The notes below the pieces were generated by a model that saw nothing but the letters and a program-made list of their open reading frames with translations, did no database searches and was not told the DNA's origin. 64,000 nt of DNA from Kribbella kalugense (GTDB lineage: Bacteria; Actinomycetota; Actinomycetes; Propionibacteriales; Kribbellaceae): NCBI RefSeq assembly GCF_004365875.1, contig NZ_SODF01000001.1, positions 3,286,001 through 3,350,000 of the forward strand, written 5' to 3'. Made by a program: the position numbers and the translations under genes. This document shows positions 4,973 through 16,201 of this stretch, one piece after another. Numbering within the stretch: the first letter of the stretch is position 1; every line of letters starts with the position of its first letter.

Positions 4973-6127
4973 ATGCGTGTTTTGCGACGAACAGTCGTGA
5001 GCTTTCTGATCGCGCTCTCGCTGGTGGCTGCCCCGATGATGGTGCAGACCGCCGCGGCTGTCCCGAACTACTCCCAAATCATCGCCGATGAGGCGTACTG
5101 GATTTCCCTCGCCCAGGTGCCAACCACTGTGGCCGGCCCGGGCCGCGGTGGCATGGCCTGGTACCCGGACAGCGGTACGCGGAAGATCCGCCCGTATATC
5201 GCCAACCGTGGGGCGGTGGGCATGCTGCTCGCGGGGCCTTACTACTACCCGATGGTGCAGGCATACGTCGACTGGTACTTCCGGCACGTGAACGGCGGGC
5301 CGAGCAGCGCTCTCCCCGCGGATTACAACGGAGTGTCGGGCACGGTATACGACTGGGACGTCACGGTGGCAACGGGCGCGGAGACGTACGGTGCGGACCC
5401 CGGATCGGGTACGACGCCGTGGTACGACTCGACCGATGCCTACGCAGGCACGTTCCTGACGCTGCTTCGCAAATGGGCTGAGGCCGACACCAGCAGCCAC
5501 AGCTATCTGGTGTCCAAGGCAAACGATATCGACATGATCGCTTCAGCCTCGCTCGTCACGCTACAAGCGAACGGACTGACCGGAGCGAAGCCCGACTACG
5601 CCGGGCAGTTCCTGATGGACAACGTCGAGGTCGCGGCTGGGTTGCGCGACGACGTCTGGTTGCTGCAGAACGTGCTGAACAATCCGACCAAGGCGGCGCA
5701 GCGGCAGGGGCAGTTGAACACCCTGCTGACCGCAATCGAGAACCACCTGTGGACACCTGGACCCGGAATGTACTGCTGGGCCTCCGATCAATGCACGAAC
5801 ACGCTGTGGACCAGGTTCTACTCCGATGCTGTCTCTCAGGTTTGGCCGATCGTGGCCGGCATCGCGTCACCGACCAGGGCGTCGTCGTTGTGGTCGTCGT
5901 TCAACACCAACTGGCCGAACTGGACGACCAGCGTCAACAACCCGGACGGCAGCCCGTGGGCGATTCTGGCCGTCGCCGCCGCTGTCCGGGGCGACAAAAC
6001 TCGCGCGGACAGCTATCTGGACGGATCACAGACCGGATGGGTGAACGGCGGCCGCGCCTGGCCGTGGAACATCGCAGACTCGGCCGACCGCGCGACGGCC
6101 GCATCGCTGGCGAGCGCGCTGCCGTAA
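4973..6127 (+). CDS. Secreted (alpha/alpha)-barrel-like protein
   Basis: A 384-aa exported protein starting after an excellent GGAGGT site. The signal peptide (about residues 1-29) ends in TAAAVP. The mature part is rich in Trp, Tyr and Asp and has helix pairs resembling the (alpha/alpha)6 folds of polysaccharide lyases and glycoside hydrolases (MDNVEVAAGLRDDVWLL, GGRAWPWNIADSADRA). I cannot assign a CAZy family. It resembles in style the C-terminal half of the 838-aa secreted protein at 13685-16201, at the far end of the neighbouring amino-sugar operon, so a role in glycan breakdown outside the cell is likely but inferred. Confidence 0.7.
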   Translation: MRVLRRTVVSFLIALSLVAAPMMVQTAAAVPNYSQIIADEAYWISLAQVPTTVAGPGRGGMAWYPDSGTRKIRPYIANRGAVGMLLAGPYYYPMVQAYVDWYFRHVNGGPSSALPADYNGVSGTVYDWDVTVATGAETYGADPGSGTTPWYDSTDAYAGTFLTLLRKWAEADTSSHSYLVSKANDIDMIASASLVTLQANGLTGAKPDYAGQFLMDNVEVAAGLRDDVWLLQNVLNNPTKAAQRQGQLNTLLTAIENHLWTPGPGMYCWASDQCTNTLWTRFYSDAVSQVWPIVAGIASPTRASSLWSSFNTNWPNWTTSVNNPDGSPWAILAVAAAVRGDKTRADSYLDGSQTGWVNGGRAWPWNIADSADRATAASLASALP

Positions 6128-6213: not shown

Positions 6214-7010
6214 TCACGTGTCGATGTCGGGCGACTGCACCGGGACTCCGCGAACGAAAACCGCATCGATCACGAGGGCGTCGTCGATGATCACGAGATC
6301 AGCGTCCAGTTCCTCAGCCAAGTATCGGTTCGCTGTGAGAATACGCGCGGGTGTTGTAGATGCGGACGTGATCGCGTCCGCCGGGGTCGACCCGCTGGCT
6401 GGCCAGAGCGAGCTGTTGAGTGCCATGGTCGGAATAGGACGAAGCGAAACCAGCCGCCGGAGTCGCGTCGGTGATCAATGCGATTCTCCGAGAAGCAGCG
6501 GGGCTGAAAGTCATGAGGGCGATCGCGTCGTGCAGGCGGGCTCCAGCATTCACACGACCTCGCAGGTGACGCGGGGATGCTCAAGCACGGACAGCGTTGC
6601 ACCGGGAGTTCGATGGTGGAGGTCACTCATCGCGTTGAGCAGATGGGTGACCAGTCACGCACCGGCGTTGATGTATTTCAGAGTGTCGTCGTACTCGGCA
6701 TCGGTATGACCGACGGCGGCCACGGAATACGCGGCGACGATCATTGGCGATGACTGAGGTACAGGCCCTCGGGATGACTGCCGATGCTGGTCGAGCCAGG
6801 TACCGGATCGGTCGTCGCGCACCGAATGCTTCCACTGTCGCCAGCAACGATGGTGGGGGTACCGCGGCGGGCACGAGCCATAGCGACCTGGTAGATCGCT
6901 TCCAGGTCACCAGACTGCGCGGCCGCGCTACCTCCCCCGTGGATATGCAGGTCGACGAAGCCCGGCGCCAACCAGCTGCCTCGCAGCTCATGGACAGCCT
7001 CCAGCATCAT
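6214..7010 (-). pseudogene. nagA: Decayed N-acetylglucosamine-6-phosphate deacetylase (nagA)
   Basis: Pieces of a NagA-like deacetylase appear in order across several frames of the minus strand. WLAPGFVDLHIHGGGS is the metal-binding N-terminal motif; AAVGHTDAEYDDT and INAGA-stop-LVTHLLNAMSDLHHR follow, then DGARLHDAIAL-like sequence, RIALITDATPAAGF, and the C-terminal STTPARIL and LDADLVIIDDALVIDAVFVRG. At least two in-frame stops (after INAGA and after CEVV), a frameshift and missing sequence in the N-terminus and middle show that it is non-functional. It starts 17 bases after the SIS gene and is the last member of the amino-sugar operon. NagA removes acetate from GlcNAc-6-phosphate, so its loss breaks the pathway unless another copy exists. 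Confidence 0.85.
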
Positions 7011-7026: not shown

Positions 7027-7800
7027 TCATCCGTTCTTCTCGGCCAGGAACTTGCTGTTGTCCTGATCGCCGTTGTCGAGGTTCCCCGACGTCAGGATCT
7101 CCGGTTGGTGGCCCCGCTGGACGATCCGACGTGCGACCTCGACGATCAGACCGTGCAGAATCGCGCTACCGACAGCCGTCGAGGTAGGTCCGACCGGCGC
7201 GCTCGAGCCGTCGATGGTGACGGCCGCATCGCCGATGCTTCCAGGTAGATCGATGACATGTTGGGCGATCTCGAACAGCCGCGCGGATCCCCGCGGCGTC
7301 ACCGCCTTGGAGTAGGTGAGCGATGTGAGCGCGATGACCTGGGCACCGCGCTCGCGGGCGGCAGCAGCCAGTTCCGTAGTGACGGGATTACGGCCCGACA
7401 CAGAGATCACCAGCACGACATCGTCCGGCTTCAGCGCGACGTCGTCGAGCAGGAGTTCACCGAAACCGGGCATCCGCTCGAGCAGGGTGGTGCGTGTCAC
7501 CGGACGCTCGTTGAGCATCAGGCCGGCCGGCAGAATCGGTTCGACCCTCGCCAGTCCCCCAGCCCGGTAGTACAGATCCTGAGCCAGCAATCCCGCATGC
7601 GTCGCACCGAATACGAACAGCGGGCGGCCGCGTAGCTGGGCAGCGGTGATCAGGTCAGCGACCTCGTTGATCACTGGACCATTCTGGCCGATTGCCTCGT
7701 CGAGACGCTCCTGCACAATGGAGAGGTACTGGACGAAACCTGGAGTGGATCCTTTGAACCTGGCGAGATCCAGGGCTGCGGCCTTCGAAGAAGTCGTCAT
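7027..7800 (-). CDS. SIS-domain sugar-phosphate-binding protein
   Basis: A 257-aa cytoplasmic protein with a single SIS (sugar isomerase) fold. Helical sequence at the start is followed by RPLFVFGATHAGLLAQDLYYRAGGL and the nucleotide/sugar-phosphate loop VLVISVSGRNPVT. The architecture matches the UPF0309 type of SIS proteins found beside sugar operons. The ATG at 7800 follows AAGAAGGG and lies four bases after the stop of the NanE-SIS gene, so the two are translationally linked. Its closest relative in the window is the C-terminal SIS domain of that neighbour. The exact reaction (isomerase, deaminase-like or sensory) is not known. Confidence 0.8.
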   Translation of the reverse strand: MTTSSKAAALDLARFKGSTPGFVQYLSIVQERLDEAIGQNGPVINEVADLITAAQLRGRPLFVFGATHAGLLAQDLYYRAGGLARVEPILPAGLMLNERPVTRTTLLERMPGFGELLLDDVALKPDDVVLVISVSGRNPVTTELAAAARERGAQVIALTSLTYSKAVTPRGSARLFEIAQHVIDLPGSIGDAAVTIDGSSAPVGPTSTAVGSAILHGLIVEVARRIVQRGHQPEILTSGNLDNGDQDNSKFLAEKNG

Positions 7801-7804
7801 CGGT

Positions 7805-9241
7805 TCAGTGACCCTTCTTTGCGTAGCGTGCCTCGATCTGGGCGACATCGGCAGGCCCACCCGGAAGGTGGATGCTGCGATAGACGCTGGGCTCGATGCC
7901 GCGTGCGGCGAGTTTCTCGGCCGCGCTGGCGATCACCGCCCAGAGAGCGGTCACGGCACCAAGCCCCGACAGCGGCACCAAGGGTCGGTCAAGCAGGCGA
8001 ACGGTCAGGAACGCATCACCGTAGGGAGCTTGGTTGTCCAGTACAACGTCGGCGACATCCAGCAGCCGTCGTCCGGAAGGATGCTCTGGCTCGAGCCGAC
8101 TCGAGTGCTTCGATGCGGTGACCGCGACGACCGCCGCGCCCCGGTGCCTCGCCGCCATTGCCAGCTCGACGGTGTCGCGGCTGGTTCCCGACACCGACCC
8201 GATGATCAGTACTCCACCGCTCACTACCGACGCCGAGTCCAGCCCAGCCTCGATACGTGTCTGGCTGTCAGCGCCGGCAGGGATCTCCAGCCGGGTGAGG
8301 GCGACCAGGCCTCCGGTGCGGGCCACGAACTCGTGTGAAACCAGGTGCCCGGTGTCGTAGACGGCGACCCGGTGCCCACCGGCGATCGCGTCGGCGACCA
8401 GGCCTGCGGCCGCTTCGATCATCGGCCGTTGGTTGTCTCGAAGGTCGGCAAGCTCCTGCAGAACGCGTCCGAAGAGCCGGTCGACGGCTGGCTCAGTCGT
8501 CTCCGGAGCATCGGCCACGGGCTCGCGATCCTGCTCGGGGAGGGCGGCGACGAACCGGCGGGTGATGAACTCCGGAACAGTGATCGCGGACCCGACGACG
8601 ACAGCGTGAACACCTGCGGCGAAGCATGCCTGGATGTCCTCGATGGTCCAGATCCGTCCCTCGACGATCACCGGGATCCCCGGGAGATCGGCTACCAGAG
8701 CAGCCGCGAGTTCAAGCGCCGGCCCCGCCTCGTGCCGGCTGTACGGCGTATAGCCGGCGATGGTGGTGGCGACCAGATCGGCGCCCGCCTCCACCGCAGC
8801 CAGGCCTTCCGCGTGCGAGGCGATGTCCGCCATCACCGGTACGCCGCATTCGCGGTGAATCCGGGCGATGAGGTCGCCCACCGTGTCTCCCTCTGGCCGG
8901 GGGCGCTGTGTCGCGTCGATCGCGACCAGATCAGCACCCGCGTCGACGATCGCGCGAGCGGCATCGAAACCAGGCGTGATGAAGACGTCGAAACCAGTTC
9001 GGGGTTGCTTGTTGATCCCGATGATCGGCAACGCCGACTGCTTCCGGACCGCCGCGACATTCTCCGGGCGGTCGACCCGGAAGCCGTGTGCTCCGCCGCG
9101 ACCGGCCGAGGCCGCGAGGGCGGCAATCATGTCTGGCGAGTTCAACGGACTCTCCGGACCTGCTTGGCAGGACACGATCAGTCCGCCGCGAATTCTCCCC
9201 AGCAACGGGGTGTCTTCAGGCTTGCTCATATCGATGCTCAT
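7805..9241 (-). CDS. nanE: N-acetylmannosamine-6-phosphate epimerase (NanE) fused to a SIS domain
   Basis: A 478-aa two-domain protein. Residues 1-235 form a NanE-type TIM barrel: IIGINK with a probable catalytic Lys78, ADLVAIDAT, VPVMADI and VIVEGRI with a probable catalytic Glu194, each equivalent by position to active-site residues of characterised NanE. NanE interconverts ManNAc-6-P and GlcNAc-6-P. Residues about 255-478 form a complete SIS domain (VYDTGHLVSHEF, IIGSVSGTSRDT) similar to the separate SIS protein encoded next. The ATG at 9241 follows GAGG; longer frames upstream overlap the kinase gene. NanE is normally a stand-alone enzyme of about 230 residues, so the fusion is unusual. 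Confidence 0.85.
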   Translation of the reverse strand: MSIDMSKPEDTPLLGRIRGGLIVSCQAGPESPLNSPDMIAALAASAGRGGAHGFRVDRPENVAAVRKQSALPIIGINKQPRTGFDVFITPGFDAARAIVDAGADLVAIDATQRPRPEGDTVGDLIARIHRECGVPVMADIASHAEGLAAVEAGADLVATTIAGYTPYSRHEAGPALELAAALVADLPGIPVIVEGRIWTIEDIQACFAAGVHAVVVGSAITVPEFITRRFVAALPEQDREPVADAPETTEPAVDRLFGRVLQELADLRDNQRPMIEAAAGLVADAIAGGHRVAVYDTGHLVSHEFVARTGGLVALTRLEIPAGADSQTRIEAGLDSASVVSGGVLIIGSVSGTSRDTVELAMAARHRGAAVVAVTASKHSSRLEPEHPSGRRLLDVADVVLDNQAPYGDAFLTVRLLDRPLVPLSGLGAVTALWAVIASAAEKLAARGIEPSVYRSIHLPGGPADVAQIEARYAKKGH

Positions 9242-9254
9242 GGTGTGTGCGACC

Positions 9255-10334
9255 TCAAAAATGTGTAGGGCTGGGATGGATGTCGGTCTTCGCCAGCATC
9301 GGCAGCAGTGACGACAGCGATGACTCGATGCGGGCCTCGACGATGGGATCCGCGGCGGGTACGCCGAGACTGAGCAACGCCAACCAATAGGCACCGATGA
9401 CCGGAGGGTGACGTGGATCGAGGAGAGTGTGGTCCGGCATCAGTACCCGCAGCCGATCAGCGAACGAAATCCAGACGCGGTTCCGAGGCCGGAACACTCC
9501 GCCAGCCGGTACGACGCTCTGCCAGCTCACCGCCGGGTCCGTCAGGGGCACAATGCCCGCCGCACGTGCGGTTTGCGCAGCCAGAGTCGCCAGGTGGTGA
9601 CCAGCCTGGTCGGCGATTCGTACGGCGATGGGGTCCCCGTCACTGGCCGCGGCGACGACTGGCTGTGCGAGGGCCGCTACGGCCGCGCGATCGAGGTCGG
9701 CGTAAACCCGTGCCGCGACGCCACGGAGATCCTGCGCGGCGAAGTGTTCGACGACACGATCGACAAACTCGGTTCCGGCCGTCCATTCGGTTCGGGCACT
9801 TTCGACGATGGCGATAGCTGCCTTGATGGCCTCGAGCCCGATCCAGAAACCACTGCCTTCATCTCCTAGCAGGAATCCCCAGCCGCCACGGATAACCGGC
9901 TTGCCCTCTGGCGGCACCGCGACGGCGATCGATCCGGTCCCGGCGATTACCGCGATGCCAGGACCACCCTGCGTGCCCGCGGCTAGCGCGGCCAGCGCGT
10001 CTGACTCCGCGACGATCCGGCGGCAGTCTGCGAGGCCTGCGACGATGCCCGGCGCGATGTCTGCGCCACCGGTCAGCGACAGGTAGGCGACCTCGATATG
10101 GACATCGCCCGGCGGTCCGACCGAACCCTCCGCGGTCGTAAGGGCTCCAATGACCGCCGCACGGAGAGCGCGGGTCATGACCTCATGGTTGCGCTCCGTC
10201 CGGACATGGACCAATGGGCCGCCACGACCAACGCCGAGCACCGTGCCGTCGTCTCGGCCGAGTACGGCGAGCGTGGCCGTCTGACCGCCGTCGACGGCCA
10301 GCACAAGCCGGCCCGCACCGGCCGTGTCAGCCAC
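9255..10334 (-). CDS. BadF/BadG-type N-acetylhexosamine kinase
   Basis: A 359-aa kinase of the ASKHA fold. The phosphate-1 loop is DGGQT (residues 15-19) and the phosphate-2 motif is AGTGS (131-135), followed by RGGWGFLLGDEGSGFWIG, the signature of the BadF/BadG/BcrA/BcrD ATPase family that includes eukaryotic-type GlcNAc kinases. It probably phosphorylates an imported amino sugar in the cytoplasm, feeding the NanE-SIS enzyme. The GTG start at 10334 overlaps the end of the upstream permease gene by eight bases, a sign of tight operon coupling. Confidence 0.85.
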   Translation of the reverse strand: MADTAGAGRLVLAVDGGQTATLAVLGRDDGTVLGVGRGGPLVHVRTERNHEVMTRALRAAVIGALTTAEGSVGPPGDVHIEVAYLSLTGGADIAPGIVAGLADCRRIVAESDALAALAAGTQGGPGIAVIAGTGSIAVAVPPEGKPVIRGGWGFLLGDEGSGFWIGLEAIKAAIAIVESARTEWTAGTEFVDRVVEHFAAQDLRGVAARVYADLDRAAVAALAQPVVAAASDGDPIAVRIADQAGHHLATLAAQTARAAGIVPLTDPAVSWQSVVPAGGVFRPRNRVWISFADRLRVLMPDHTLLDPRHPPVIGAYWLALLSLGVPAADPIVEARIESSLSSLLPMLAKTDIHPSPTHF

Positions 10335-11184
10335 GGACAGCTCCCGCCATGACGCCTCTCACGATGAATCGCTGGAAGACCAGGTAGATGGCCAGGGCGG
10401 GAACCATCGTGATCGTCGTCGCGGCCATCATCAGCCCGTACTGCGAGAAGAACGTCCCTTGGAAGGTCATCAGGCCAACCTGCAAGGGCATCCGTTGCTG
10501 ATCGGAGAAAACGACCAGGGCGAACAGGAATTCGTTCCAGACGCTGAGGGCGGTGAAGATGGTGATGGTCGCCAGGGCGGGTTTGGCCAGCGGCAGCGCG
10601 ATCAGCCGATAGACCTGAAGCCGGGTGGCGCCGTCGATCCTGGCACTCTCCTCGATCTCCCGCGGGATCTCCTCGAAGAAGCTGCGAAGGATGAAGATCG
10701 CCACCGGCAGACCGGCGTTGATCATTGGAAGGATGTATCCCAGCGGAGTGTCGATCAGACCGAGATTCACCAGCAGTACGTACAGCGGAATGAAGGACCC
10801 AGGAAGCGGGAAGGTCAGAAAGATGAGGAACAGGTAGAACACGAGGTTCTTCAGCGGGAAGCGCATCCGGGCGAACGCGTACGCCGCCAGCGACGAGATG
10901 ATGAGAACGCCCGCGACAATCGTGACGGTGTAGATGACGCTGTTCTTGAAGTACGTGCTGAAATGCGCTTGCGTCCAGGCCTGGGTGTAGTTGCCGAGCT
11001 CAAGGTGACGCGGGATCAGATGGATGCCGGAGTAGATCTCCTGATTACTCTGCAGCGACGCCGACAGGGTCCACAGCAAGGGCAGCAAAGAGGCGACCGC
11101 CCACCCCAGCAGCGCAAGGTGAAGCAAGCGGCGCCGCGGCGCCCGTGAACCACGCGAGAGGAGCCGGCCCGCTGATGTGCTCAT
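10327..11184 (-). CDS. ABC sugar importer permease (MalG type)
   Basis: A 285-aa inner-membrane protein with six predicted membrane helices and the binding-protein-dependent permease EAA loop EESARIDGATRLQVYRLIAL, where the ATPase docks. Its length and second place in the permease pair fit the MalG/CUT1 family, which imports oligosaccharides or amino sugars. Its ATG overlaps the TGA of the MalF-type permease (ATGA). No ATPase gene is in the operon. Many actinobacterial CUT1 systems share one MsiK-type ATPase encoded elsewhere, and I infer the same here. Confidence 0.92.
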   Translation of the reverse strand: MSTSAGRLLSRGSRAPRRRLLHLALLGWAVASLLPLLWTLSASLQSNQEIYSGIHLIPRHLELGNYTQAWTQAHFSTYFKNSVIYTVTIVAGVLIISSLAAYAFARMRFPLKNLVFYLFLIFLTFPLPGSFIPLYVLLVNLGLIDTPLGYILPMINAGLPVAIFILRSFFEEIPREIEESARIDGATRLQVYRLIALPLAKPALATITIFTALSVWNEFLFALVVFSDQQRMPLQVGLMTFQGTFFSQYGLMMAATTITMVPALAIYLVFQRFIVRGVMAGAVRG

Positions 11185-12260
11185 CGATCCGCTCCGCGGC
11201 GAGCAAGGCGCAGTTGCGCGATGGACACGGCGAGGAGAAGCACTCCGAAGATCACGGCCAGGGCCGACGCGTAGCCGAAATGAAACAGACCGAACGCTTC
11301 CCGGTAGATGTGCAGCACCGGCACTTCGGTCGAATACCCCGGCCCGCCGTTGGTCATGGCAAGCACCAGATTGAACATCTGCATGGCCCCCAGAATGGTA
11401 AGAATGTTGACGGTGGTGATGACCGGTCGGAGCAATGGCAGCGTGATGCTGAAGAAGATCCGCCGCTCCGAGGCACCATCGACAGCAGCTGCCTCGTACA
11501 CCTCATCCGGGATCGATTGGAGCCCGGCGAGGTAGAGCAGGAACGGGTACCCAACCCCCTGCCAGATCGACGCCAGCGACACCGCCCACAACGCCGTACC
11601 GCCGTCACCGAGCCATGCTCGTGCCACGGAGTGCAGGCCCAGTTGGTCGAAGGCCTGGTTGATCGGGCCGCCGTACGGCTGGTACAGCCACTTCCAGATC
11701 ACCGCGACGACGATGCCGCTGAGGATGGTGGGGACGTAGAAGGCGGTGCGGTACGCCGCCCGGCCGCGCCGGACCCGCTCCACACCGACCGCCAGGAGTA
11801 GTCCGAGCGGTGTCATCAACAGCAGGGCGGCGGCGACGAACAAGCCGCCGTTCAGCAACGATCGCCACCACAGGCTGTCGTGGAGTGCCGCGCTGTAGTT
11901 GTCCAGACCAACGAAGTTGGCGTGGTTCGACAGACCGTCCCAATCGCTGAAGCTGAGCGAGATCGTCCGGACGAATGGGTACACCGTGAACAGCAGAAAG
12001 AACGCCAGTGCCGGTACGACGAACAAAAGACCTTGTTTCCAGTCCTGATCGTAGCGGCGCTGGGACCGCGCCGGGCGGGCGGGCCGGTTGCCCGGCGCGG
12101 TCGCTTCCAGCACCTCACCCGAGCCAGACGGCCCCGCCGATACCGGCGACGGGACCGCCTGCGGCTCACCAACCGGAGGTGAGGGATTCGGCCGACCGGA
12201 ATCGGACTGGCCGGCAGAACCGGTCGCCGAGCCTGCGTTGGATCGAGTGGGGTGGTTCAC
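11181..12260 (-). CDS. ABC sugar importer permease (MalF type)
   Basis: A 359-aa membrane protein. A long Pro/Ser-rich cytoplasmic N-terminus (about 75 residues) is followed by six membrane helices starting at GLLFVVPALAFFLLF, with the EAA loop DEVYEAAAVDGASERRIFF. It pairs with the MalG-type permease to form the channel of a CUT1 importer. I chose the GTG at 12260, 28 bases after the end of the binding-protein gene; no strong ribosome site decides this. The extended N-terminal tail is longer than usual but low in complexity. Confidence 0.9.
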   Translation of the reverse strand: MNHPTRSNAGSATGSAGQSDSGRPNPSPPVGEPQAVPSPVSAGPSGSGEVLEATAPGNRPARPARSQRRYDQDWKQGLLFVVPALAFFLLFTVYPFVRTISLSFSDWDGLSNHANFVGLDNYSAALHDSLWWRSLLNGGLFVAAALLLMTPLGLLLAVGVERVRRGRAAYRTAFYVPTILSGIVVAVIWKWLYQPYGGPINQAFDQLGLHSVARAWLGDGGTALWAVSLASIWQGVGYPFLLYLAGLQSIPDEVYEAAAVDGASERRIFFSITLPLLRPVITTVNILTILGAMQMFNLVLAMTNGGPGYSTEVPVLHIYREAFGLFHFGYASALAVIFGVLLLAVSIAQLRLARRGADR

Positions 12261-12288
12261 CTGGACCGTCGCTTTCTTCAGTCGATCG

Positions 12289-13656
12289 TCACTTGGCCTG
12301 GCCGGTGGACTGGGCGTGTTGTAACGCAGCGGCGACGGCGGCCGGTGCTGACTTGCCGGCCAGGATGTTCTGCAGACCGGCATGCAGGGACGTGTTCACC
12401 GCGGCAGGCATGCTGTGCGGCAGCGAGGGGAAGACCTTGTCCATCTCAGCCGCGAACTTCTGCAGCACTGGTGTGGTCGAGATCTTGCCGGCGACCTCGC
12501 GGTTGGCCGGGAGGTTCGCGCTGGTCGTGGCGTACTTCACCTGCTGGTCAGGGTCGGTCAACCAGCGCACGAACTTGACCGCTTCGTCCTTGTGCGGCGA
12601 TGTACCGACGACGAGGAGTTGAGCTCCGACCCCACCGGGGATGGCGAGCTTTCCTGTGGCGCCGCCGACCGAGGGCGGCAACATCACGTCGTAGTCGGTG
12701 AATCCTGGATTCTTCTGCTTGAAGACGCCGACCGCCCACGAGCCGTCGAAGATCATGCCTGCCTGACCGTTCGCGAACAGGCTCTCCGCTGCCGGCATAT
12801 CTGCGGCGAGAATCCCCTGTGCGAGCGCCTTGGACTCACGCAACTGCTGGAACAGTCCGAGGAAATCCAGCCAGGCAGGATCTGTGTACTTCCGCTTGCC
12901 GCTGAAGGTGGCGTCCATCGCGTCGGCGCCGATGACGTCGTACTGGTACATCTGGGCGAAGGAGTCGAGAGGCCAGGACGCGAACCCGGACGTGAAAGGA
13001 ACGACACCTGCCGTGGCGAGCTTCGCGCTGGCGTCGAGGAAGTCCGCGAAGGTCGCTGGCGGCGCGCTGATCCCAGCCTTCGCGAAGTGCTTGGTGTTGT
13101 AGAGGATCTGCATGTTGTTCGCGTCGAGCGGCACGAGGTAGGGACCAGGTGGGACGCCGAAGCTGTTGCCGGGTTGGAAGGAGCCGGCCTGCAGGTGTGC
13201 GGGATAAAACCGCTGGCTCCAGCCGTCGTTCATGGCTGCCTGGAGGTTGAGGATCGTTCCCTGCTTGGCGTACGGCGCCAGCCCGTCACCGACCCCGGTC
13301 CAGCCTGCCGCGACGTCGGGAAGCCGTCCGGCCTGCGCGGCTGCCTGGAACTTCTGGCCCAAGGTGTCGCCCGGAATGAGCTGCAACTTCACCGTCACAC
13401 CGGTCTGATCGTGGTACTGATCGGCGAACTGTTGTAGCAATTCGGCGCGGTCCGTGAAGTAGTGCCAGAAGTTCAGGGTGACCGACGACTTGCCTGAGCT
13501 GCTGCTCGCGCTCGACTTGTCGTTGCCGCCGGGGGCGCATCCTGCGACCGTCAGAGAGATTCCGGCCAGGGCGGTCAGGACGGAGCGACGGCTGAACCCG
13601 CGGGGGGTTTGTTCAGCCGTAGCCGAGGCGGGTGGTGGTACGTGAGACCTGTTCAT
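12289..13656 (-). CDS. Extracellular solute-binding lipoprotein of the sugar ABC importer
   Basis: A 455-aa binding protein. The signal region has twin arginines (RRSV) and ends in a lipobox (VAGC), so it is an exported lipoprotein, possibly through Tat. The mature part is a family-1 solute-binding protein: VTLNFWHYFTDRAELL, then a long alpha/beta fold with many aromatic residues for sugar stacking. The ATG at 13656 follows AAAGG; the frame upstream overlaps the 838-aa gene on the same strand. It delivers substrate to the two permeases downstream. The nature of the operon suggests an amino-sugar-containing glycan fragment. Confidence 0.9.
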   Translation of the reverse strand: MNRSHVPPPASATAEQTPRGFSRRSVLTALAGISLTVAGCAPGGNDKSSASSSSGKSSVTLNFWHYFTDRAELLQQFADQYHDQTGVTVKLQLIPGDTLGQKFQAAAQAGRLPDVAAGWTGVGDGLAPYAKQGTILNLQAAMNDGWSQRFYPAHLQAGSFQPGNSFGVPPGPYLVPLDANNMQILYNTKHFAKAGISAPPATFADFLDASAKLATAGVVPFTSGFASWPLDSFAQMYQYDVIGADAMDATFSGKRKYTDPAWLDFLGLFQQLRESKALAQGILAADMPAAESLFANGQAGMIFDGSWAVGVFKQKNPGFTDYDVMLPPSVGGATGKLAIPGGVGAQLLVVGTSPHKDEAVKFVRWLTDPDQQVKYATTSANLPANREVAGKISTTPVLQKFAAEMDKVFPSLPHSMPAAVNTSLHAGLQNILAGKSAPAAVAAALQHAQSTGQAK

Positions 13657-13684
13657 CGGATAGTCACGCCTTTCGGGTTCCTGG

Positions 13685-16201
13685 TCAGAACCACAGCGAG
13701 TGGTCGCGGTCGAAGGTGAGAATGCGGATGAGGTGGCCGGCAGTGATCGCCAGCGTGGCCGGGTTGCGGCGTCCCTCGATGCTGAGATATTCGTCGACGA
13801 AGTGCTGGGCGGCAGCTGGATCCCCGACCCGCAGGGCGGCCTGGGCCCACCACATGTATTGGGGCGTGTCATTGATGGCCAGCGGTCGCTGATCAGCCTG
13901 GCCGACATCAAATTTCTGCACGAGTTGCTGGAACAGCGGGAGGTCCCCCGGTCCACCGATGTGCGATAGCGGGAGCACCGATGCCAGCGCGTCGGGGAAC
14001 CAATGCTCGAGCGGACCTTCCTGGATTCCGTTCGGATGGACGGCTACCGCGAAGTGCCCATCTGGCTGCACCGGATAGCGCGCACGCAGCGCGTAGAGGT
14101 TGCGCGCGGCGAGATAGGCGGCGAGACGGCGCTGCACGGCATCGTGTACGTCGCGGGCGAGGCGGACCGCCGCGACCTCTCCGTTGTAGGTCTCGGCGTT
14201 GTCCATCGCGAACCGGACCGGGTAGCTCTGCTTGGCGATGGTCGTGCCATCGGTCAGGAAGACGGTGTCGAGAGCGCGTTCCGCCTTGGTCACAAAGGGC
14301 TGCACGGCCTGCAGGTACTGCTTCCGGGCTACCCCGGCCGGCGTGACCTGAACGCGCTTCTGCACCGCCAACAGGTAGGTGGCCGCGTACGAGTCCACAG
14401 AGTCGTGGTCGCCGGTGTCGACGCAGTTCGGGTATACACCCAAGCAGTCGTCGACGATTCCGTCCGCGTCCATATGACTCTGGTACCAAGCCAACCACTG
14501 GTCGGCCGCTTCCCGGTAGGCACGTTTTCCGGTCACCTCGAAGGCTCGCAGCAGTCCGAGGGTGGCGTAGTTCGCGGCGTATGGATCGACCTTGCCGCTC
14601 CAGGGATCGCCAACCGGTCCAACCACCAAGCTGCCGTCAGGCTTCTGGCTGGTCAGAATCTGGTCCGCCAGTTCCCGGACCTGTGTCTTGATCTCCGGGG
14701 TCAGGCTGCCAACCGGCGAATCGTCATCCTTGGCCGCAGCCCGCACCTGTGTAGCGAAGGGCGTCAGACTCTGAGTCACCTGCACATCGTCGACAGTGAA
14801 GGCGGCCTCACCACCTGTCGCCGTTTCCAGCTTCAACTCAACGCTCCGCACGAACTGACCGACCAGCCCCGGGTCGATATCGGACAATGCGAGTTGGACG
14901 TGCCGCCATTCGCCGGTCGGAATCGATCCGGCGTCGAGCACCCGGAACTTCGTGTATCCCGCGTCCGTGGCAGCCGCGACGACAAGATCGGCGGGCTCAG
15001 CAGAGCCGTCCACGCGGAACCAGAATCCGATCGAGCTGTTCTCATCGAGCCAGTGCGCCGTCCGGATGTGGGAGATAACGAACGGCCCAGCGGCGGTGCC
15101 GACACCTTGCAGCGCGGTTCCACCGGAGTGCACCGGGCTGGTGACGATCTGGGCCGACGAGCTATCCGCGTTGCTGTACAGACTCCACGGCGCGGCGCTG
15201 GTCAGCTCATCGCGCAACAACGTTTCGGGAGGCGCCGGATTCGTGCCTGCGGCCGTCCGGAAACCCCAGGTGATCGGTTGGTCGAGCGATACGCCCGCGG
15301 CAGATCGCACGTCGGTGATGCTCACATCGACGTCCGCATTCGGCGGTAGCGGATGGAGAGGGACGACCATCACCGCGTGCTGACCGGCCGCGTAGCGGAC
15401 CGCCGCTGGGACCGCCTGTCCCGCGATACTGACGGTCGCGGAGGCGTCGGTCACGCTGGTGCGGTCCAGCGCCGTGTTCAGGAAGGCTGTGATGACCCTG
15501 TTCGGACGGACGTTGGTCGCCCCATCGACCGGCGAGGTCGCACTAGCCTGCGGTGGCGGCTGAACACCGTTTGCGATCTCGACATCGTCGATGGTGAAGT
15601 CCGCCGTACCGGCTGCTGAATCGGTGACGGCCTTCACAACGAATCGGGTGATAGCGGCCCCGGCGAGCTGATCGGACACGTCCGTCAGCGCTATCGATGC
15701 TCGAGTCCAGGCGCCGGTAGCGATCCCCGCCGGCACCGTCGTGAAGTAGTCCGCTCCAGCGGCGGTGCGGACCTCGACCACCAAACTGCGGAAGGTGGCG
15801 GTTCCTTCGGCCAGGTACCAGAAACTCAGGGCTGAGTTGTCCTCGTTGAACGACAGGCCGTCGCGGATGTGCGCCAAGCCGATCTCGGACTGAGCCGGAT
15901 CAGCGGTGGCGGTACCACGGAGCGCACCAATACCACCGTGTGTCGGCGAATTCACGACCTGTGCCGCACCGTCGCGGCCGTTGGTGTAGTACGTCCAGCC
16001 AGGGGCTCCTGCTTCGAAGTCCTCGCTGAAAACCACACTAGCCCCACCGGCCGCGGTCGCCGTGCGGGCCGAGGCTGGGCATGCCAAGGTTGCACACAGA
16101 GCCAGCACGGTGACCGCAACTGCGACGGCGATCGCGCGCGGTTTGGACGTGTTGCTCGACCGGAATGACGAGTTCAGAGAGGACGGCGGGAGGAAGAACA
16201 T
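13685..16201 (-). CDS. Secreted multidomain glycan-active-like protein
   Basis: An 838-aa exported protein and the first gene of the amino-sugar operon, starting after GAGGAG. After a signal peptide (about 1-50) come two related beta-sandwich modules (about 55-212 and 330-480; each opens with a W-x2-Y-near motif and ends in FTIDDVEI or FTVDDVQV), like carbohydrate-binding modules. Between them is a bacterial Ig-like domain (SPVDGATNVRPN, 218-320). The C-terminal 340 residues are helical with aromatic-rich motifs (VDPYAANYATLGLLRAF, MDNAETYNGEVAAVRLA), suggestive of an (alpha/alpha) barrel lyase or hydrolase. No catalytic residues can be assigned with certainty. It probably releases the oligosaccharide that the ABC system imports. 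Confidence 0.75.
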   Translation of the reverse strand: MFFLPPSSLNSSFRSSNTSKPRAIAVAVAVTVLALCATLACPASARTATAAGGASVVFSEDFEAGAPGWTYYTNGRDGAAQVVNSPTHGGIGALRGTATADPAQSEIGLAHIRDGLSFNEDNSALSFWYLAEGTATFRSLVVEVRTAAGADYFTTVPAGIATGAWTRASIALTDVSDQLAGAAITRFVVKAVTDSAAGTADFTIDDVEIANGVQPPPQASATSPVDGATNVRPNRVITAFLNTALDRTSVTDASATVSIAGQAVPAAVRYAAGQHAVMVVPLHPLPPNADVDVSITDVRSAAGVSLDQPITWGFRTAAGTNPAPPETLLRDELTSAAPWSLYSNADSSSAQIVTSPVHSGGTALQGVGTAAGPFVISHIRTAHWLDENSSIGFWFRVDGSAEPADLVVAAATDAGYTKFRVLDAGSIPTGEWRHVQLALSDIDPGLVGQFVRSVELKLETATGGEAAFTVDDVQVTQSLTPFATQVRAAAKDDDSPVGSLTPEIKTQVRELADQILTSQKPDGSLVVGPVGDPWSGKVDPYAANYATLGLLRAFEVTGKRAYREAADQWLAWYQSHMDADGIVDDCLGVYPNCVDTGDHDSVDSYAATYLLAVQKRVQVTPAGVARKQYLQAVQPFVTKAERALDTVFLTDGTTIAKQSYPVRFAMDNAETYNGEVAAVRLARDVHDAVQRRLAAYLAARNLYALRARYPVQPDGHFAVAVHPNGIQEGPLEHWFPDALASVLPLSHIGGPGDLPLFQQLVQKFDVGQADQRPLAINDTPQYMWWAQAALRVGDPAAAQHFVDEYLSIEGRRNPATLAITAGHLIRILTFDRDHSLWF

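Follow-up and report, generated by a model that had tools for sequence, protein, structure and literature searches.

A NanE epimerase fused to a UPF0309 (SIS) domain in a putative amino-sugar operon of Kribbella

In the 64,000-nucleotide stretch of DNA analysed here (the window), from the soil actinobacterium Kribbella, one gene encodes a NanE-type epimerase followed by a SIS domain of the UPF0309 family, and its anatomy is that of a real fusion of adjacent genes in an operon that is common to another family. The exact NanE-UPF0309 pair is without precedent in the searches made. We propose a model, to which we give about an even chance, of a gene fusion within an operon for amino-sugar uptake and breakdown, in which the epimerase would be tethered to a diverged UPF0309 subunit (SIS1) acting with a separate UPF0309 protein (SIS2) on GlcNAc-6-P. 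The features concerned are the following.

6440..6971, minus strand: decayed nagA (GlcNAc-6-P deacetylase); stops and frame changes, weak traces to 6256
7027..7800, minus strand: SIS2, separate UPF0309 protein, 257 aa (P0002); PRK02947 2.2e-67
7805..9241, minus strand: NanE-SIS1 fusion gene, 478 aa (P0001); stop-free translation, Pfam and NCBIfam matches to both halves
7814..8482, minus strand: SIS1 domain, residues 254-476, UPF0309/PRK02947 family; PRK02947 7.7e-48, phmmer to NagS 9eol 5e-26
8483..8539, minus strand: linker, residues 235-253, separating the NanE domain from the SIS1 domain
8540..9205, minus strand: NanE domain, residues 13-234; PRK01130 5.2e-73
9255..10334, minus strand: BadF/BadG-type kinase; PF01869 2.3e-28
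10327..11184, minus strand: sugar ABC transporter permease; PF00528 2.1e-20
11181..12383, minus strand: sugar ABC transporter permease, longest frame; PF00528 1.5e-19
12289..13956, minus strand: extracellular sugar-binding protein, longest frame; PF01547 8.2e-37
13685..16201, minus strand: secreted-looking 838-aa protein; Big_5 alone above cut-off, tblastn to L090 and L091
16316..17062, plus strand: divergent GntR/UTRA regulator; PF07702 9.2e-38, PF00392 5.4e-21

The fusion gene is a single frame from an ATG (7805-9241, minus strand) that encodes 478 aa with zero internal stops. Pfam places NanE at residues 39-234 (E 1.9e-43) and SIS_2 at 261-375 (2.6e-13), while NCBIfam places PRK01130 NanE at 13-234 (5.2e-73) and PRK02947, "sugar isomerase domain-containing protein", at 254-476 (7.7e-48), both above their curated cut-offs. 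Expressed in bits, the NanE profiles give 148.4 (PF04131, cut-off 27) and 244.9 (PRK01130, cut-off 189), and the PRK02947 cut-off of 135 is passed by the fusion at 162.8, by SIS2 at 226.8 and by the four SIS1 and SIS2 counterparts described below at 196.2 to 239.3. An earlier note on this DNA had described a complete NanE barrel and a complete SIS domain in one chain, with a second SIS protein of the same kind four bases further on; with both halves above family cut-offs, the stop of the fusion gene ending at 7805 and the next ATG, that of SIS2, at 7800, this description stands. The structure prediction that the same note had suggested was run on the fusion, and in the AlphaFold model the second half matches the UPF0309 structures 3cvj (Z 22.0) and 9eol, the latter being NagS (Z 21.5), and the first half matches NanE (4utu, Z 21.3). 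The model was built from an 8-row alignment whose 7 non-query rows span the SIS half only; the first half matched NanE structures though no NanE relatives were aligned. Its mean pLDDT is 66.9, and the low confidence of residues 218-254 (below 50) would be as expected of a flexible linker.

The N-terminal half resembles known NanE (PF04131, PRK01130; 4utt, 6vva) and keeps Gln11, Arg40, Lys63, Asp124, Tyr149 and Glu180 of the S. aureus enzyme. Its active-site positions are Gln26, Arg55, Lys78, Asp139 and Glu194, and the probable catalytic Lys and Glu already noted from the sequence correspond to Lys78 and Glu194. Gln11, Arg40, Lys63, Asp124 and Glu180 (S. aureus numbering) are present in the fusion and in 63 of 63 NanE compared. 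The NanE half is most likely a working epimerase. Besides its C-terminal SIS domain, the fusion differs from NanE at one position of the signature motif VG(S/G)AxTR, published along with the catalytic residues (PMC8482478). In S. aureus NanE, Arg208 of this motif touches the C3 and C4 hydroxyls of the substrate (PMC8482478); the equivalent in the fusion is Val222, which departs from the motif. With Arg at this position in only 5/63 NanE, the motif is no defining feature of the family in the set compared. A special substrate of the NanE half, read from the Val, was considered and dismissed as evidence, 58/63 NanE being without this Arg. Most actinobacterial members among the 63 NanE (L001-L080) carry Asn (27) or His (19) there, contrary to the published motif.

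Both SIS units share family and fold with NagS of Streptomyces (SCO4393, UPF0309, structure 9eol), which is a GlcNAc-6-P dehydratase (PMC12680351). As reported there, ManNAc-6-P is also a substrate, used about 40 times less efficiently than GlcNAc-6-P, and the active site is common to two monomers, Arg64 and Asn228 being supplied by the neighbour. His53, Arg64, Glu94, Asp179 and Asn228 are essential, and N228A lowers kcat/Km from 5.48e4 to 263 per M per s (PMC12680351). Of four NagS homologues assayed there, only that with 65.5% identity was active, the other three (25.7, 33.2 and 35.7%) showing no or negligible activity, orthologues having at least 58.7% identity (PMC12680351). In the literature searched, we found no UPF0309 member with a known reaction other than Streptomyces NagS.

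Over NagS residues 30-241, SIS1 is 36.9% and SIS2 37.2% identical to NagS, both below the orthologue level. SIS2 keeps His53, Arg64, Glu94, Ser119, Ser121, Asp179 and Asn228, Ser54 and Ser91 being replaced by Ala and Thr. SIS1 keeps His53, Arg64, Ser119, Ser121 and Asp179 in all three sequences available (the fusion and its counterparts in the genomes G191 and G211), and in the same three Asn228 is replaced by His and the loop with Ser54, after His53, is shorter by two residues. The Glu94 equivalent of SIS1 is Glu, Asp, Thr or a gap, depending on the alignment and the member; a loss of Glu94, read from a first alignment, was rejected, two later alignments placing Glu there and another Thr. The five essential residues are kept by 24/24 distinct non-SIS1 UPF0309 proteins, NagS included (26 rows were compared, SIS2 of the window and of G211 being duplicated, and the fragment L086 was omitted). 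Thus, these residues mark UPF0309 as sampled and do not diagnose a dehydratase. With its full set of essential NagS residues, SIS2 appears the likelier catalyst of the two, and SIS1 looks able still to bind a 6-phosphosugar in an altered site. MurQ was rejected as an identity for the SIS units: SIS2 reaches 29.6 bits versus 168 for PRK05441, and no MurQ model is among the 7 listed for the fusion. Elsewhere, a NagS-like protein of G139, a genome assigned to the family of G191 (L112:3954-4634), is 53% identical to S. coelicolor NagS, adjoins a GntR regulator and keeps all NagS residues checked; it could extend the range of NagS.

The operon of the fusion and SIS2 lies on the minus strand of an 8.3-Mb genome, with the GntR-type regulator facing away. 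The sole NCBIfam match of the kinase is N-acetylglucosamine kinase NagK (NF046058, 4.4e-24), at 85.5 bits under the cut-off of 370. Homology of the permease at 11181..12383 to L091 runs from residue 118 on, and its true start is probably further in, as is probably that of the binding protein. The 838-aa protein is kept in the operon of the relatives at 40-41% identity, and searches of families and solved structures gave no useful match for it. This protein and the one encoded at 4973-6127 on the plus strand are both secreted-looking and without a catalytic family match; BLAST aligns about 156 residues of the two at 26% identity (E 4e-7 for that pair), and phmmer gave no link. SIS2 is not in the dmdR1 neighbourhood of NagS: it sits between the fusion gene and the nagA remnant, in an operon with NanE and a transporter. 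This remnant, directly downstream of SIS2, matches TIGR00221 (5.6e-12) with an internal stop and is hit by tblastn with the genome's own NagA (3e-16) in two frames; the deacetylase gene of the operon seems to have been lost in the window. In L090 and L091, this tblastn gave no nagA-like hit. Elsewhere in the genome there are nagA-like genes at C3:1049727 (above cut-off) and C1:2153615 (below). No nagB above cut-off was found in the genome, the nearest match being C1:2154814 (130.4 bits versus 236.9), beside the nagA-like gene C1:2153615.

The eight-gene order of secreted protein, binding protein, two permeases, BadF-type kinase, NanE, SIS1 and SIS2 recurs in two genomes of a different family, G191 and G211 (loci L090 and L091); in these, NanE and SIS1 are encoded by two genes that overlap in different frames. 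These are 60-62% (NanE) and 43-44% (SIS1) identical to the fusion. The relatives' NanE stop falls within the first bases of SIS1, whose presumed start is a TTG preceded by AGGAG(G); SIS1 in turn overlaps SIS2, at GTGA. An RpiR-type regulator lies ahead of the operon in G191. The G191 BadF kinase (L090:8812-9772) aligns in two pieces with a frame change near the end, and that of G211 in one piece. Within their genus, matches at 1e-60 or better are confined to G191 and G211 (2/12 genomes), and SIS1 at 1e-32 is found in 2/22 genomes of their family. NanE and a UPF0309 gene lie within about 1.3 kb of each other in 9/12 genomes of this genus, including these two. In two further genomes of the genus (L101, L102), a transporter and a BadF kinase are followed by NanE, one more gene and a UPF0309 gene; in L101, the gene between NanE and UPF0309 gives just a sub-threshold ceramidase match.

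Outside this genus, the pairing of NanE with UPF0309 was not seen in the other families listed, four candidates per genome being scored. The second NanE of the Kribbella genome itself (L092) has no UPF0309 gene within the 16 kb read around it. Among the 38 genomes of one genus that sample the family of the window, 38/38 match the fusion protein, 10 of them via a SIS gene alone without NanE. UPF0309 is therefore not generally tied to NanE. SIS1 at 1e-28 is found in the order sample in its own genome only (1/391), and in the phylum sample 3/396 genomes matched, namely its own and two at 34 and 40% identity, the 40% match being 89% identical to NagS. There is overlap between these samples, and with 4 to 7 candidates scored per genome in the searches at class, order and phylum level, fusions that are rarer or have diverged further could have escaped notice.

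That NanE is normally a single-domain enzyme, as the earlier note had stated, agrees with 64 of 66 distinct NanE frames, which lack any match to MurQ, SIS or BadF references; N-terminal partners other than these were judged by eye. The two exceptions are the fusion of this window, alone in having a C-terminal extension of more than 26 residues, and a MurQ-NanE fusion on a plasmid of Deinococcus peraridilitoris, that is, one NanE-UPF0309 fusion and two NanE-SIS fusions in the wider sense. Eleven frames have at least 200 residues ahead of NanE without a MurQ, SIS or BadF match; as further N-terminal fusions they were rejected: their first 60 residues, like those of two frames with about 150 extra, looked by eye like high-GC DNA translated out of frame. 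Among 414 plasmid records with a match, none covers 80% of the fusion, and no relative of the NanE half was found among 6 pattern matches in viral contigs. A scan of genome contigs with the fusion, which reaches close relatives only, returned 9 loci, all matching the SIS half only. As for the architecture being already common and characterised, it is seen once among the 66 frames, and a literature search by titles and abstract starts gave no description of it.

In a 28-row tree, for which the program warned of long branches, SIS1 forms its own clade (100/100, stem of 1.3 changes per column) and SIS2 another (100/99), which joins the clade that holds NagS at 91/89. Between G191 and G211, dN/dS is 0.25 for NanE, 0.27 for SIS1, 0.18 for SIS2 and 0.25 for the binding protein; the value for SIS1 indicates purifying selection in this pair. 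From the separate NanE in other loci, we infer that the direction was fusion in this genome and not splitting in the relatives.

The earlier note had also raised the possibility that the domains are encoded separately in close relatives and joined here by a frameshift. This is partly the case: the genes are separate, and since their frames differ in both relatives, the printed frame presupposes an indel whose length is not divisible by three. The NanE-SIS-SIS order is, however, common to the relatives, which argues for a functional link independent of the fusion. As for a one-base sequencing or assembly error joining two overlapping genes, it is unlikely, and we would give it only a small chance. 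Codon usage over the linker places the printed frame ahead of the next one by 9.7 log2 units, and this frame is favoured in every 24-codon window starting at residues 215-262 (1/13 training frames, cut out of frame, was left out), the test being blind to an error at the linker's left edge. An error at that edge would go with a CCCC run just past the conserved NanE end, with an in-frame GTG at residue 241 that could be the old SIS1 start and with the presence of the fusion in one genome only. Nevertheless, the six other operon genes compared (secreted protein, binding protein, two permeases, kinase, SIS2) align in one piece with L091 along their frames in the window, and the relatives' AGGAG(G) signal is absent in the window. 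If NanE were unfused, its end would lie at least 18 codons past its conserved RRFV, versus 7 and 10 in the relatives, and it would overlap SIS1 more than either relative's does. Decay as the explanation is improbable too, if slightly less so: found in one genome only and beside a pseudogene of the same operon, the joining could be a neutral by-product of operon decay without a selected role, which would be compatible with the other readings. The nagA remnant with its stops lies directly downstream, and the other 37 genomes of the family contain neither the fusion nor a SIS gene more than 39% identical to SIS1, so that the operon is not kept across the genus. On the other hand, the remaining operon genes, like both SIS units, have open frames and family matches, and the nagA-like genes elsewhere in the genome mean that the loss in the window need not disable the pathway.

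In our preferred model of a tethered epimerase, the ABC transporter would import an N-acetylated amino sugar, the BadF-type kinase would phosphorylate it at C6 and the NanE half would convert ManNAc-6-P to GlcNAc-6-P, as their families suggest, and the SIS units would act on the GlcNAc-6-P. Since NagS builds its site from two subunits, we propose that SIS1 pairs with SIS2 and that the fusion tethers the epimerase to this pair; in a mixed dimer of SIS1 and SIS2 the two sites would differ from each other, and NanE would be held beside them. The same proteins are encoded by overlapping genes in the relatives, and hence the fusion would alter linkage, not pathway. A past nagA in the operon would fit either ordinary GlcNAc-6-P deacetylation or the NagS-NagA sequence of Streptomyces. 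The window holds no nagB match, so that one of the SIS units could conceivably be a deaminase, but NagS is reported not to bind GlcN-6-P (PMC12680351). The BadF-NanE-X-UPF0309 clusters of L101 and L102 count for the tethered-epimerase model; the roughly 37% identity of SIS1 and SIS2 to NagS and the lack of a general tie between UPF0309 and NanE count against it. A more specific form, which we regard as a long shot, would make SIS1 and SIS2 an obligate heterodimer with one working site that, with NanE, would take ManNAc-6-P through GlcNAc-6-P to a dehydrated amino sugar phosphate for breakdown. If so, NagS-type chemistry would be a catabolic route outside Streptomycetaceae, SIS1 would be a UPF0309 subunit adapted to work with a partner, and the fusion would fix this assembly in one chain.

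The earlier note had instead suggested either a bifunctional enzyme channelling ManNAc-6-P and GlcNAc-6-P or a regulated epimerase. Channelling is plausible, NagS of the same family acting on both sugars (PMC12680351); a "bifunctional enzyme" is no more than a candidate reading, given the differences of SIS1 at Asn228 and in the loop after His53 and the absent or negligible activity of three distant NagS homologues (PMC12680351). In its strict form, NanE would make GlcNAc-6-P and SIS1 would convert it as a dehydratase, deaminase or isomerase, SIS2 being independent. The five NagS residues kept by SIS1 in 3/3, its purifying selection between G191 and G211 and the precedent of a barrel-SIS fusion of consecutive enzymes (HPS/PHI, 9lj9, matched over both halves) lend this some weight, which is offset by the shortened Ser54 loop, the uncertain Glu94 equivalent and the change of Asn228 to His in 3/3, at a residue whose replacement by Ala costs NagS most of its kcat/Km (PMC12680351); we hold it to be rather unlikely. 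As for regulation, SIS1 would be a sensor domain modulating NanE activity upon binding of a sugar phosphate. RpiR regulators sense sugar phosphates through SIS domains, and an RpiR-type regulator precedes the G191 operon; SIS1 also keeps the phosphate-binding Ser119 and Ser121 and has lost Asn228. In the relatives, though, SIS1 has its own gene next to SIS2, as would be expected of a partner subunit more than of a cis-acting sensor, and a sensor seems to us quite improbable.

The fusion and the shared NanE-SIS-SIS operon tie two further UPF0309 branches to ManNAc-6-P/GlcNAc-6-P metabolism. These concrete candidate substrates are a clue to the role of a poorly understood family, and the SIS1/SIS2 pair raises the question of whether shared-site dimers can be mixed. 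Among known systems, the bifunctional 3-hexulose-6-phosphate synthase/6-phospho-3-hexuloisomerase (NF041755, 9lj9) likewise has a phosphosugar TIM barrel and then a SIS domain in one chain, but barrel and SIS families and the reactions differ. The RuMP_HxlAB profile gives 25.4 bits on the fusion, far under its cut-off of 500, and the domains of 9lj9 are placed differently (rmsd 18.3 over 328 residues, against a low-confidence model of the fusion). The MurQ-NanE fusion of D. peraridilitoris plasmid pDEIPE01 (WP_015231443.1) also joins a SIS-family enzyme to NanE in an operon with a sugar ABC transporter and a BadF kinase; unlike in the Kribbella fusion, its SIS part is MurQ and lies N-terminal of NanE. 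This 523-aa protein (L113:2074-3645), which adjoins the BadF kinase and the sugar transporter, is annotated just as a MurQ etherase.
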